Of a stretch of 56,317 nt of DNA, positions 21,323-30,647 are shown in pieces. Positions within the stretch are counted from its first letter, which is position 1. Each line of letters begins with the position of its first letter. Source of the stretch: Planctomycetaceae bacterium (GTDB lineage Bacteria; Planctomycetota; Planctomycetia; Planctomycetales; Planctomycetaceae); contig JAHBXV010000040.1 in NCBI GenBank assembly GCA_019636285.1, forward strand, positions 1-56,317, written 5' to 3'. The position numbers and the translations under genes were made by a program. The notes below the pieces were generated by a model, which made no database searches, was not told the DNA's origin, and worked only from the letters and a program-made list of their open reading frames with translations.

Positions 21323-22303
21323 ATGATCCGACCGACACGCTCCTTGCCGGTTCTGTCATCCTGTTTCACGGACGGCCTCCGACGTGCCTGCCGCGTCCCG
21401 ACGATCCTAGCGGTCCTGCTGACTACGTCGCTGACGCTCGCACCAGCGGTCCATGGGCAGGCAACGCCCAAGAAGGACGTCATTTCCGAACAATCGATTC
21501 CGACCAAGGATGGCCGCTTCAGTCTCAAGACAACGTATTATCAGTCGAGCGCCGGGCAAAGCGCCCCCGTCGTGGTGCTGCTCGCGGGTCGCTCGGGCAA
21601 CCGCATGATCTGGAAGCCGTTCGCCGAGTATCTCCAGAAGTCCGGCTATGCCGTTCTGGCGGTCGATCTGCGCGTGCAGGGCGAAACCGCCGCGACGGCC
21701 GCCCAAGCTGGCGGCAAAGTCGAAACAGGCGACCTGAAAGCCACCGACTACGCGGAAATGGTGGCCGAAGACATGGAAGCCGTGAAACGGTTCATTTTCG
21801 ATGAACATCAGCGTAAGCAGTTAAACATGGCCAAAATGGCCATCGTGGCGGCCGACCAGCTTTGCTCCGTCGCCGTTGCTTACACGGACGTCGACTGGTC
21901 GAAGACTCCCTACGACGACGCTCCGACCTTCGCGCAGCGAACGCCGCGCGGCCAGGACGTGAAGGCTCTGGTCCTTCTCTCGCCCGAACAGACGGCTCCG
22001 GGGCTTTCGGTCCTGCAATCCATCGCGAAACTGAAGGCGGCAAAGATTCCGGTTCTGATCGGCGTCAGCAAAAGCGATCCCCAGGACAAGGGATCGTCCC
22101 GCAAGATTCATCAGGTTCTCGCCCCCCGCAAGGAAGGCTTCGAGCATATTTATTTGGAACAATATCAGGGCAAGGGACGCGGGACCGACCTGATGGCGGC
22201 GCCGCTGCGAACGCCGGTTCATATCACCAATTTTCTGGACCAGCACCTCAAGAAGCTTGAAATCAACTGGCAGGACCGCCGCAGTCGTCTGGAACGAAAC
22301 TGA
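21323..22303 (+). CDS. Secreted alpha/beta-hydrolase-like protein, nucleophile doubtful
   Basis: 326 residues. The N-terminus carries a signal peptide (hydrophobic VPTILAVLLTTSLTLAPAVHGQA). The strand-turn pattern of an alpha/beta hydrolase is clear: APVVVLLAGRSGNRMIWKPFAEYLQKSGYAVLAVDLR, then a later VKALVLLSPEQ and IPVLIGVSKSDP. The nucleophile elbow, usually GxSxG, reads IVAADQLCSVAV here, so the catalytic serine seems to be missing. It may bind instead of hydrolyse, or act with Cys. GGAGG stands before the ATG. Confidence 0.75.
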   Translation: MIRPTRSLPVLSSCFTDGLRRACRVPTILAVLLTTSLTLAPAVHGQATPKKDVISEQSIPTKDGRFSLKTTYYQSSAGQSAPVVVLLAGRSGNRMIWKPFAEYLQKSGYAVLAVDLRVQGETAATAAQAGGKVETGDLKATDYAEMVAEDMEAVKRFIFDEHQRKQLNMAKMAIVAADQLCSVAVAYTDVDWSKTPYDDAPTFAQRTPRGQDVKALVLLSPEQTAPGLSVLQSIAKLKAAKIPVLIGVSKSDPQDKGSSRKIHQVLAPRKEGFEHIYLEQYQGKGRGTDLMAAPLRTPVHITNFLDQHLKKLEINWQDRRSRLERN

Positions 22304-22373: not shown

Positions 22374-22919
22374 ATGCCCCTTGAAACCTCGCGTTCGATT
22401 CGTGTCGGAAAATCCGTCTGCGGAAAGGGCGTCTACGCCGCTCGCGATCTTCCGGGCGAACAGCCCGTCGGCCGTATCCTGGGTCGTGTGATCGATGATC
22501 CTGACTATACGTCATCGTATTGCATCGACCTGGGAGACAACCTGTCTCTCGAGCCTCGCAGTCCGTTTCGCTATCTGAATCACTCGTGTACGCCGAACTG
22601 CATGCTCTCGCTATACGACTGCGAGTACGAGGACGGGACGCCGGCTCCGTCCGAGCTTTACCTGGAAACGCTTCGGCCGGTCATGGCGGGAGAAGAACTG
22701 ACGATCGACTATGCGTGGAGCGCCGACGGTGCGATTCCCTGCCTGTGCGGCAGTTCGGCCTGCCGCGGGTGGATCGTGGATCCGGAACAGTTGCCATTGC
22801 TTTTGAAGCGCGAGGCGGCCAAGCAACGATCCAAGCGACAGAGCACCAAATCGGCGACTGGAAAATCGTCGAAGAAAAGCCCCGGAGAAAAGAAAACCGC
22901 ACGGGGGAAACGGTCCTGA
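22374..22919 (+). CDS. SET-domain lysine methyltransferase-like protein
   Basis: 181 residues. The SET fold is evident: KGVYAARDLPGEQ at the start, RYLNHSCTPNCM (the NHSCxPN motif, 67-77), GEELTIDY (106-113) and the post-SET zinc motif CLCGSSACRGWI (123-134). The family transfers methyl groups from S-adenosylmethionine to protein lysines. The C-terminal 35 residues are very rich in Lys and Ser (KQRSKRQSTKSATGKSSKKS) and look like a histone-type tail, which could target nucleic acid or be itself a substrate. Bacterial SET proteins of this kind occur in planctomycetes; targets are unknown. Confidence 0.88.
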   Translation: MPLETSRSIRVGKSVCGKGVYAARDLPGEQPVGRILGRVIDDPDYTSSYCIDLGDNLSLEPRSPFRYLNHSCTPNCMLSLYDCEYEDGTPAPSELYLETLRPVMAGEELTIDYAWSADGAIPCLCGSSACRGWIVDPEQLPLLLKREAAKQRSKRQSTKSATGKSSKKSPGEKKTARGKRS

Positions 22920-27875: not shown

Positions 27876-28859
27876 TCACTCAGGTCGCGGCACCACCCAG
27901 ATGTTCCGGAACCGGACCGGGTTGCCGTGGTCTTGCAGGTACAGGGGGCCGTGTTCGGGGCCATCCTTGACCGGCGCGGCCCGAGTTGCCTCCGGCACCG
28001 GAACATTCTCGTGAATCAAGACGCCGTTATGGCGAACGGTCAGGTGGGCATCGGCCACTTTCGTCCCCTGGGCATCGTATTTGGCGGCGGTGAAGTCGAT
28101 GTCGTACGTCTGCCAGGCCAAAGGGGGCAGGCACATGTTGACCGACGGCGCGCGAACGGTGTAGATGCCGCCGCATTCGTTGTTCAGACCATCGAGCCCG
28201 AACGAATCGAGAATCTGGACTTCGTACCGCCCTTGCAGGTAACAGCCGCTGTTGGCCCGTCCCTGACCGCGAGCGGCGGGCATGTAGGGAAGCAGGAACT
28301 CGAGATGAACGCGGCAACTTCCAAACTTCGGGCCACTCGTCGCACCGGCGATCAACAGGCCATCCTCGGTCATTTTCGCGCCGGGAAACTGGTCGGTCGA
28401 TTTGCCGTCGAAAAGCACCACGGCTCCTTCCGGCGGAGCAGCGCCAAGGGTGGGGCTCTTGCGGACCACACGCTCCAGCCGCCCGACCTGGTTGCCATCA
28501 ACCTGGACAATCAAGCGGTCGGCCGTCAGCAGCCCGACACTTCCGTTGTCCGAAGCAAAACGGACGGAGTCACCATCGCGACGTGCTTCGGCCGTGATGC
28601 GAGCCGTGCCGTCCCAGCCATCGCCGGGGAGTCCACCAATATGGCCGATGCCGCGAAACAGTCCGTCACCGAGTGCGATCACCTGCACGCCAACGATGAC
28701 ATCGCCTTCATCGTTTTTGACGGTCCCGACAAATTCTCCCTGCAGGGCGAAATCAGCATCGGCCTCGGCCGGAGAGGTCGCTCCGCCATCGGCCGCAGCA
28801 GCCAACCCGGCACCAGCGGCCAGCAAAAACATCCCGGCGAAAATCGAACGCATTGTCAC
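27876..28859 (-). CDS. Secreted DUF1080 (3-keto-disaccharide hydrolase) protein
   Basis: 327 residues; GTG start at 28859 or ATG at 28853, GGAG upstream. A signal peptide (MRSIFAGMFLLAAGAGLAAAA) is followed by a small N-terminal domain (35-135) and a DUF1080 beta-jelly-roll: GAVVLFDGKSTDQF, FLLPYMPAARGQGRANSGCYLQGRYEVQILDSFG and the end HGNPVRFRNIWV. DUF1080 enzymes act on 3-keto-glycosides. It is extracytoplasmic, probably for sugar scavenging. The gene is bracketed by two copies of the inverted-repeat element, one just past its stop and one 53 bases upstream of its start. Confidence 0.88.
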   Translation of the reverse strand: MTMRSIFAGMFLLAAGAGLAAAADGGATSPAEADADFALQGEFVGTVKNDEGDVIVGVQVIALGDGLFRGIGHIGGLPGDGWDGTARITAEARRDGDSVRFASDNGSVGLLTADRLIVQVDGNQVGRLERVVRKSPTLGAAPPEGAVVLFDGKSTDQFPGAKMTEDGLLIAGATSGPKFGSCRVHLEFLLPYMPAARGQGRANSGCYLQGRYEVQILDSFGLDGLNNECGGIYTVRAPSVNMCLPPLAWQTYDIDFTAAKYDAQGTKVADAHLTVRHNGVLIHENVPVPEATRAAPVKDGPEHGPLYLQDHGNPVRFRNIWVVPRPE

Positions 28860-29243: not shown

Positions 29244-30647
29244 ATGTCGGGTGCGAATTACTCCGAGGAAGAACAGCGGAACCGCAAAATCGCGGGCCTC
29301 AGTTGGCAGCGGGGGACCGAAGCCATGTCCAAGCAGAACTGGGATTTCGCCGTCCAGATGTTTTCGCAGTGCGCCAGCCTGGTGCCCGACAACCTGACCT
29401 ACCGGCAGACCCTGCGTGGCTGCCAGGAGAAGAAGTACAATAACAACAAAACCGGCGCGAGCATGGCCTTTCTGAAAGTGAACGCCGCCCGCGGCAAGGT
29501 GAAGAAAGCCCAGAAAGCCCAGCAGTGGCGCGAGATGGACCGGGCCGCCGAGGAAGGGCTGGCACTCAACCCTTGGGACGTGCAGTTCAATTCCGACGTG
29601 GGGGATGCCTGCCGCGAACTGGGGTACGACGACGTTGCCGTCTTCGCCTACCAGAGCGCGGTCCAGGCTCAGCCCGACAATAAAGAGCAGCTCAAAAAAC
29701 TGGGCGAAATGCTCGAAATCAAGGGCGATTACCAGGGTGCCATCTCCTGCTTCGAGAAGATTTTCAGACTCGACCCGCTCAACGGCGAAGCCCGCTCGAA
29801 AGTCACGCAACTTCGGGCCGATTCGGTCATCGACCGCGGCGGCTACGAAAAGGCCGAATCGACGCGCGAGGTCACGCAGGGCTACGAACAGTCGGTCCGT
29901 GGCAACGCCGCCAATCCCCAGGAAGTAGCCACGCCAGGCGAATCGCCAGAAGCCGACCTGCAACGCATGATACGCAAGGAACCGCAGAACGAGGCCCATT
30001 ACCTGAAGTTGGGCGCGCTCTACTCCCGCGAAGGCCGCCTGGACGACGCCGCGAAGATTCTGCAGCAGGCGGTCGATATCAACGGCAACATCAGCATTCG
30101 CGAGCAACTGGAAGATGTTCAGATCGCGATCCTGAAACGCAATATCGACCAGGCGCGAACGGCAGCCGGGAAGGGCGACGAAGCCGCCAAGGCCAAACTG
30201 GCCAAGCTCGAAGTTGAAATGCGCGACCAGCAGATTGAAATCTTCGGCCGGCGGATCGAACGCTACCCGGCCGACATGAAGATGAAATTCGAGCAGGCGG
30301 AGCGGCTTTTCCGGGCGAAGAACTTCTCGCAAGCCACCAAAATGCTTCAGCAGGCCGCCCGCGACCCCCGCATCGAAGGCCCGGTACTGCTCATGCTTGG
30401 TAAATGCTTCCTCGCGGAAAAGCAGAATGTCTTGGCGCTGCGGCAATTGGAAAAAGCCGTCACGAAGTTCGATTCCGGGGAAAACTCGAAGGAATTCTGC
30501 GACTGCCACTATCTGATGGCTCGCCTGTACGAAGAGGCCGGCCAGAAAGAAAAAGCGGTCAATTCGTACACCGAAGTCATGGCGATCGACTACGACTATC
30601 GGGACGCCCGCGCCCGTCAGCAAAAGCTGCTGGAACAAGGCGGCTGA
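29244..30647 (+). CDS. Tetratricopeptide-repeat protein
   Basis: 467 residues, no signal peptide or membrane helix, so cytoplasmic. At least six TPR-like helix pairs are visible: AMSKQNWDFAVQMFSQCASLVP, DRAAEEGLALNPWDVQF, VAVFAYQSAVQAQPDNKE, QGAISCFEKIFRLDP, LDDAAKILQQAVDIN and KAVNSYTEVMAIDYDY. Such proteins scaffold protein complexes; the partner is unknown. A charged coiled coil lies about 300-340. The stop codon overlaps a long inverted repeat that may end transcription. Confidence 0.85.
   Translation: MSGANYSEEEQRNRKIAGLSWQRGTEAMSKQNWDFAVQMFSQCASLVPDNLTYRQTLRGCQEKKYNNNKTGASMAFLKVNAARGKVKKAQKAQQWREMDRAAEEGLALNPWDVQFNSDVGDACRELGYDDVAVFAYQSAVQAQPDNKEQLKKLGEMLEIKGDYQGAISCFEKIFRLDPLNGEARSKVTQLRADSVIDRGGYEKAESTREVTQGYEQSVRGNAANPQEVATPGESPEADLQRMIRKEPQNEAHYLKLGALYSREGRLDDAAKILQQAVDINGNISIREQLEDVQIAILKRNIDQARTAAGKGDEAAKAKLAKLEVEMRDQQIEIFGRRIERYPADMKMKFEQAERLFRAKNFSQATKMLQQAARDPRIEGPVLLMLGKCFLAEKQNVLALRQLEKAVTKFDSGENSKEFCDCHYLMARLYEEAGQKEKAVNSYTEVMAIDYDYRDARARQQKLLEQGG

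Follow-up and report, generated by a model that had tools for sequence, protein, structure and literature searches.

SET enzymes are well established in bacteria. The characterised examples in the table of one review belong to pathogens or to a pathogen's relative and were assayed mainly on host histones (PMC3980110). In the sections of that review cited here, prokaryotic SET enzymes that methylate DNA-binding proteins of their own cell are also listed: cpnSET methylates Hc1 and Go1-SET methylates MC1-alpha. According to the same account NUE methylates itself, with no methylation of Hc1 (PMC3980110). The passages cited here from another paper deal with outer-membrane methyltransferases, and the term "SET domain" is absent from its main text (PMC11784438). 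A paper on the CAGE complex is unrelated, its wording being "E set domains". From the literature on planctomycete SET domains and lysine methylation we recovered no activity or substrate for the protein described below, and the same literature together with that on rumen relatives yielded no paper on its subfamily.

The DNA analysed here is a 56,317 nt stretch from a Planctomycetaceae bacterium (GCA_019636285.1, contig JAHBXV010000040.1), the whole of which is referred to as the window. It contains a predicted SET-domain methyltransferase gene, and a charged C-terminal tail is the only unusual feature of the encoded enzyme.

A SET and post-SET protein

The gene occupies positions 22374..22919 of the forward strand (ATG to TGA, 181 aa) and is real and complete; its prediction as a methyltransferase draws on a Pfam match, a 43-sequence alignment and an AlphaFold model. 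A first-pass annotation, made from the letters alone, had called the product a bacterial SET-domain protein, and this was confirmed by Pfam SET (PF00856), which matches residues 17-113 (22422..22712, + strand) with a score of 44.9 bits (cut-off 22.4, E 1.7e-11). NCBIfam models gave no match to the ORF. The gene had also been described as a lone one, which is right for the window genome: a profile search of the host genome (6.37 Mb, estimated 99.77% complete) returned a single SET match.

The domain contains G-x-G (residues 17-19), FRYLNHSCTPNC (65-76) and EELTIDY (107-113), and is followed by a post-SET motif, CLCGSSACRGW (residues 123-133; 22740..22772, + strand), with the pattern C-x-C-x4-C at 123/125/130. 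The window protein was aligned with 42 further loci. This 43-row alignment is a selection: several of 51 close genomes are absent from it, three of its genomes belong to other families than the window's, genome G392 is represented by two loci, and one row is a weak member (L103). Residues 17, 22, 49, 69, 70, 72, 74, 75, 113, 123, 125, 130 and 131 are identical in all 43 rows. Among the SAM-binding and catalytic motifs, G17, N69, H70, C72, P74, N75 and Y113 are present in 43/43 rows, and G19 and D112 in 42/43; Ile111 and Trp115 are likewise found in 42/43 rows, and Trp133 in 41/43. The cysteines of post-SET type (C-x-C-x4-C plus the Cys of NHxC), namely C72, C123, C125 and C130, are kept in every row. 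Since G17, N69, H70, C72, Y113, C123, C125 and C130 are invariant in 43/43 relatives, the motif set is not due to chance, and the initial claims that all family motifs are present and that a post-SET knuckle follows them both hold, the latter as a cysteine pattern. C72 and the post-SET cysteines form a probable zinc site, an assignment based on known SET structures.

The AlphaFold model computed from the 43-row alignment (mean pLDDT 89.6, pTM 0.77) has a predicted SET fold and post-SET region of MLL type. The closest solved sequences were KMT2/MLL SET domains (phmmer E 5.3e-11 for MLL4 with the single sequence, E 3.3e-20 with the 43-row profile), and sequences and folds alike were nearest to lysine methyltransferases of the MLL/KMT2, SETD2, ASH1L and NSD groups. 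Foldseek ranked MLL3 first; a second-look structural alignment put MLL1 at the top, with Z 15.9 and an rmsd of 1.9 across 129 residues, and gave MLL3 a Z of 15.7 and an rmsd of 1.8. BurB aligned to the model with Z 14.0 and rmsd 4.5 over 138 residues (phmmer E 1.7e-5). Ile111 aligns to a Tyr of MLL4 (LTYDY), a position which we take to be the Phe/Tyr product-specificity switch. With Ile there in 42/43 rows, the site would not be of standard histone type. In 21 distant planctomycete SET proteins the aligned residue is mixed, and is Ile in three (L023, L027, L030).

Motifs and fold make it very likely that the protein is a SAM-dependent methyltransferase, and a protein lysine is the likely methyl acceptor. 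Protein-lysine methylation, which had been suggested at the outset, is the best-supported predicted activity, sequence and fold both being nearest to histone-lysine methyltransferases. The reviewed prokaryotic enzymes that act on DNA-binding proteins of their own cell are precedents for it (PMC3980110).

Distribution and gene neighbourhood

Sequence comparison places the window protein in a planctomycete SET subfamily. In an even draw of the phylum (392 genomes), matches at E <= 0.001 occur in 44 genomes and matches at E <= 5.8e-36 in 9; in the window's family (170 genomes) the numbers are 66 at E <= 0.001 and 51 at E <= 1.4e-45. Fifty of these 51 close genomes hold one match at E <= 1.4e-45, G392 having a second. 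The family of a Thermoguttaceae relative (L178) was searched at E <= 1e-8, and 56 of its 119 genomes match. A scan of named genomes found at least 550 relatives among 592 candidate stretches; 68 of the best 80 of these relatives are titled planctomycete (including Blastopirellula marina and Schlesneria), 10 are titled Granulosicoccaceae or Chromatiales and 2 only "bacterium". The ten rows with Granulosicoccaceae or Chromatiales titles (L125, L140, L142, L152, L161, L165, L167, L170, L174, L179) form one starred clade with L039, which is from the window's phylum, and point either to gene transfer into gammaproteobacteria or to bins assigned to the wrong taxon. Gemmata obscuriglobus is also a planctomycete. 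It is named as carrying a SET gene (PMC3980110), possibly one of this subfamily. That many planctomycetes have a member of the subfamily, usually in one copy, suggests that the methylated targets are molecules of the cell itself.

Matches were also found on 15 IMG/VR contigs. One of these, an 86 kb putatively viral contig, carries a SET homologue with 40% identity and a short basic C-terminal tail (L184:4860-5414). A phage or plasmid origin of the gene was considered and rejected: a phage collection gave no match to the SET protein, and a set of 72,556 plasmid records yielded 19 matches, all at <60% identity (10 of the 19 listed).

Around the SET gene, BioD (on the other strand) and a hydrolase-like ORF lie upstream, and an ORF without a family match and a sulfatase lie downstream. 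The hydrolase-like ORF (21323..22303, + strand) gives a weak alpha/beta-hydrolase match that falls slightly short of the Pfam cut-off. A gap of 70 bases separates its end from the SET start, and the two genes are possibly co-transcribed; no counterpart of this ORF was found beside the SET genes of relatives (42 loci). A promoter scan returned 0 promoter-like sites (0.4 expected) and a terminator scan 4 terminator-like sites against 2.6 expected. Counterparts of the sulfatase ORF occur near the SET gene in 2 of 42 loci (L038, L096), at differing positions, and in L116 in another comparison. None of the window ORFs that were compared has stayed beside the SET gene throughout the subfamily, and genome context was rejected as a guide to the substrate.

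Further arrangements were seen in individual groups. A 3-keto-disaccharide-hydrolase ORF (27876-28859, - strand) and a TPR ORF (29244-30647, + strand) form a divergent pair 5-8 kb downstream; L103, a distant member, has both ORFs in the same arrangement close to its SET gene, and L101 has the hydrolase. In one Pirellulales clade, where 10 SET clusters share a block, the ORF next downstream overlaps the SET gene as called. In L159:5859-15486, the locus scanned with Pfam, this overlapping ORF has an MMPL-type transporter match, a POT transporter lies on the upstream side and aconitase on the downstream side, and the layout is similar in L133 and L150; the block does not reach as far as the window. 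Within a single genus of the family to which the window belongs, the gene for ribosomal protein S4 begins some 0.7 kb past the start of the SET gene and in the same direction in 4/4 loci (L034, L035, L070, L071; Pfam on L035), an adjacency that needs no more than ordinary within-genus synteny to explain it.

As possible nucleoid substrates, the host genome contains two HU-type matches. The second (L200:1291-1794) is weaker than the first and lies in an open frame of 167 aa. Searches of the host genome with the Hc1 and HC2 profiles gave no match, nor did a search with the lysine repeat of a rumen relative at E <= 0.001, and a Chlamydia-type substrate was therefore rejected.

The basic C-terminal tail

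The last 37 residues (145-181; 22806..22916, + strand), picked out by composition and by the model, contain 10 K and 5 R. This K+R count of 15 is the highest among 452 ORFs that were sampled, on the criteria of length and codon composition, in 611 kb of the host genome, window included (runner-up 12), which bears out the earlier description of the tail as lysine-rich. The model is helical up to residue 162; its low confidence beyond that point suggests that the tail is probably flexible. The C-terminus had further been said to resemble a histone tail. In composition it does, whereas the likeness does not extend to sequence. Local alignments to histone tails were compared with those of 2000 composition-preserving shuffles, and shuffled tails scored equal or higher in 661/2000 cases for H3, 1787/2000 for H4, 1465/2000 for H2B and 724/2000 for H1. 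Histone-tail mimicry beyond composition was therefore rejected.

Tail length varies from 0 to 41 residues across the 43 aligned rows, and nothing in the tail sequence is conserved, so that no target site is kept. Tails of <=10 residues in 20/43 rows mean that the tail is dispensable for basic activity. It cannot be a substrate common to the whole subfamily, since it has <=15 residues in 25/43 rows.

Relationships were examined in a tree of 107 rows (123 minus rows whose cores are 97% identical), which is built on few columns and has many open forks. In the window's 21-row clade the net tail charge is +5 to +13 in every row, though sequence and length (8-39 residues) vary. Outside this clade a charge of at least +5 is found in 6/86 rows (L103, L116, L123, L178, L180, L183), and of the two sister rows of the clade one lacks a tail and the other has 3 residues, the net charge being zero in both. 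SH-aLRT support is moderate (85) for the 21-row fork and 95 for the 23-row fork that adds the two nearly tailless rows. The rows of the clade are related, and the retained charge therefore does not represent 21 independent events. The closest relatives thus share a positively charged tail in which the charge is kept and the sequence is not.

Tails more striking than that of the window protein occur separately, in a distant group of Thermoguttaceae type with lysine-repeat SET homologues at L178:7983-8834 and L180:579-1304 and in L241, L242 and L244, L241 and L242 being the same genes as L178 and L180. The net tail charge is +39 in L178 (131 residues) and +28 in L180 (89 residues). Their KKT/AKK repeats match chlamydial HC2 with E 1.3e-8 and 6e-9, which is below the Pfam cut-off, and the likeness may therefore be one of composition. 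L178 and the genomes closest to it make a set of four whose SET parts are 90-100% identical to that of L178. Three of them carry lysine repeats, and L243 ends instead in a tail of another kind, 30 residues long and of net +11. Among 30 loci read from L178's family, 5 reach +5 and 25 fall below. A rumen habitat for L178 is taken from its title (goat reticulum), and the RUG-named bins of its group are presumably from rumen as well. On the subfamily tree, strongly basic tails turn up in no fewer than two separate places, one being the clade of the window and the other L178/L180.

Predicted function and comparison with known systems

On balance, and with confidence only a little better than even, we read the window protein as a cytoplasmic SAM-dependent protein-lysine methyltransferase with SET and post-SET parts, perhaps tethered by its tail to DNA or RNA. 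The G-x-G and NHxCxPN motifs would bind SAM, the invariant Tyr113 would line the lysine channel, and the zinc cluster C72/C123/C125/C130 would close the active site over the substrate. The flexible basic tail would cling to DNA or RNA (or to an acidic partner) by electrostatic attraction and so bring the enzyme within reach of a basic protein associated with the nucleoid or the ribosome, a kind of substrate already suggested in the first-pass annotation; the tail itself may be methylated too. The link with nucleic acid is conjecture, in keeping with a charge that is retained while the sequence is not. The analysis itself establishes the gene, its motifs, the predicted fold, the conservation and the tail charge, whereas we infer methyl transfer, the lysine acceptor, zinc, cell location, tethering and substrate, in part from known SET structures.

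The main substrate might instead be the enzyme's own lysine-rich tail, with automethylation tuning charge or activity. The ten lysines in the last 37 residues and the probable flexibility beyond residue 162 are in line with this, as is the precedent of chlamydial NUE, described in the cited part of the review (PMC3980110). However, catalytic residues are kept in all 43 rows, including the 25 with tails of <=15 residues (<=10 in 20), and the tail sequence is unconserved, so that we regard automethylation as the main role as unlikely. A bolder form of the tether idea, in which an H1-like tail holds the SET domain on the nucleoid and is itself methylated, would make the protein a planctomycete chromatin-modifying enzyme, writer and marked protein in one; we consider this quite doubtful.

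A small-molecule activity like that of BurB, which converts methionine to S-methyl-methionine, is similarly doubtful. BurB is a small stand-alone SET protein of 172 aa (PMC12542666, cited in part) that matches the model with Z 14.0, and since it holds methionine by main-chain contacts (PMC12542666), sequence alone cannot decide against this reading. However, MLL3 is nearer in structure (Z 15.7, rmsd 1.8) and MLL4 in sequence (5.3e-11 against 1.7e-5), and a scan of six neighbouring ORFs, though it found one sulfatase, found no methionine or DMSP family. Far less probable is a secreted effector acting on histones of a eukaryotic host or prey in the style of Chlamydia or Legionella. The modelled fold is of histone-methyltransferase type and the basic tail could act as a nuclear localisation signal, but many planctomycete genomes carry a member of the subfamily, and a Pfam match that begins at residue 17 leaves little room for an N-terminal secretion signal. 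We give as little credence to a SET fold that has degenerated into a non-catalytic binder of SAM or protein: no activity for the subfamily was found in the literature on planctomycete SET domains and lysine methylation, which would suit such a fold, whereas the catalytic residues are invariant in 43/43 rows.

As it stands, the predicted tail-tethered lysine methyltransferase is a well-conserved but ordinary enzyme of an already known type. Its charge-conserved tail offers a testable idea, that of an enzyme which sits on DNA or RNA and modifies the proteins there. If true, this would bear on the regulation of the bacterial nucleoid by protein methylation, a subject described as "under discussion" in the passage cited from a 2022 review (PMC10117894).

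Among the described prokaryotic SET enzymes, cpnSET and Go1-SET both act on DNA-binding proteins of their own cell, and NUE is a type-three secreted effector; the window protein is likened to all three by description, from the parts of the review cited (PMC3980110), and its genome differs in having no Hc1 or HC2 match. L178 belongs to the same SET subfamily (33% identity over 165 residues, E 3e-36), and this Thermoguttaceae-type protein and L180 differ from the window protein in their tails of 131 and 89 residues with KKT/AKK repeats. BurB, a methionine S-methyltransferase of Burkholderia thailandensis, shares the small stand-alone SET architecture and the fold (Z 14.0), but acts on free methionine, as stated in the portion of the paper cited (PMC12542666), and matches the window protein less well than lysine methyltransferases do. 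The best matches in sequence and fold are the eukaryotic MLL1, MLL3 and MLL4, with which the window protein shares the SET and post-SET fold, NHSCxPN and CxCx4C. It is 26-32% identical to MLL/KMT2 proteins over the aligned part, and differs from them in having no further domains, in being bacterial and in the residue just ahead of the DY motif, which is Ile where they have Tyr.
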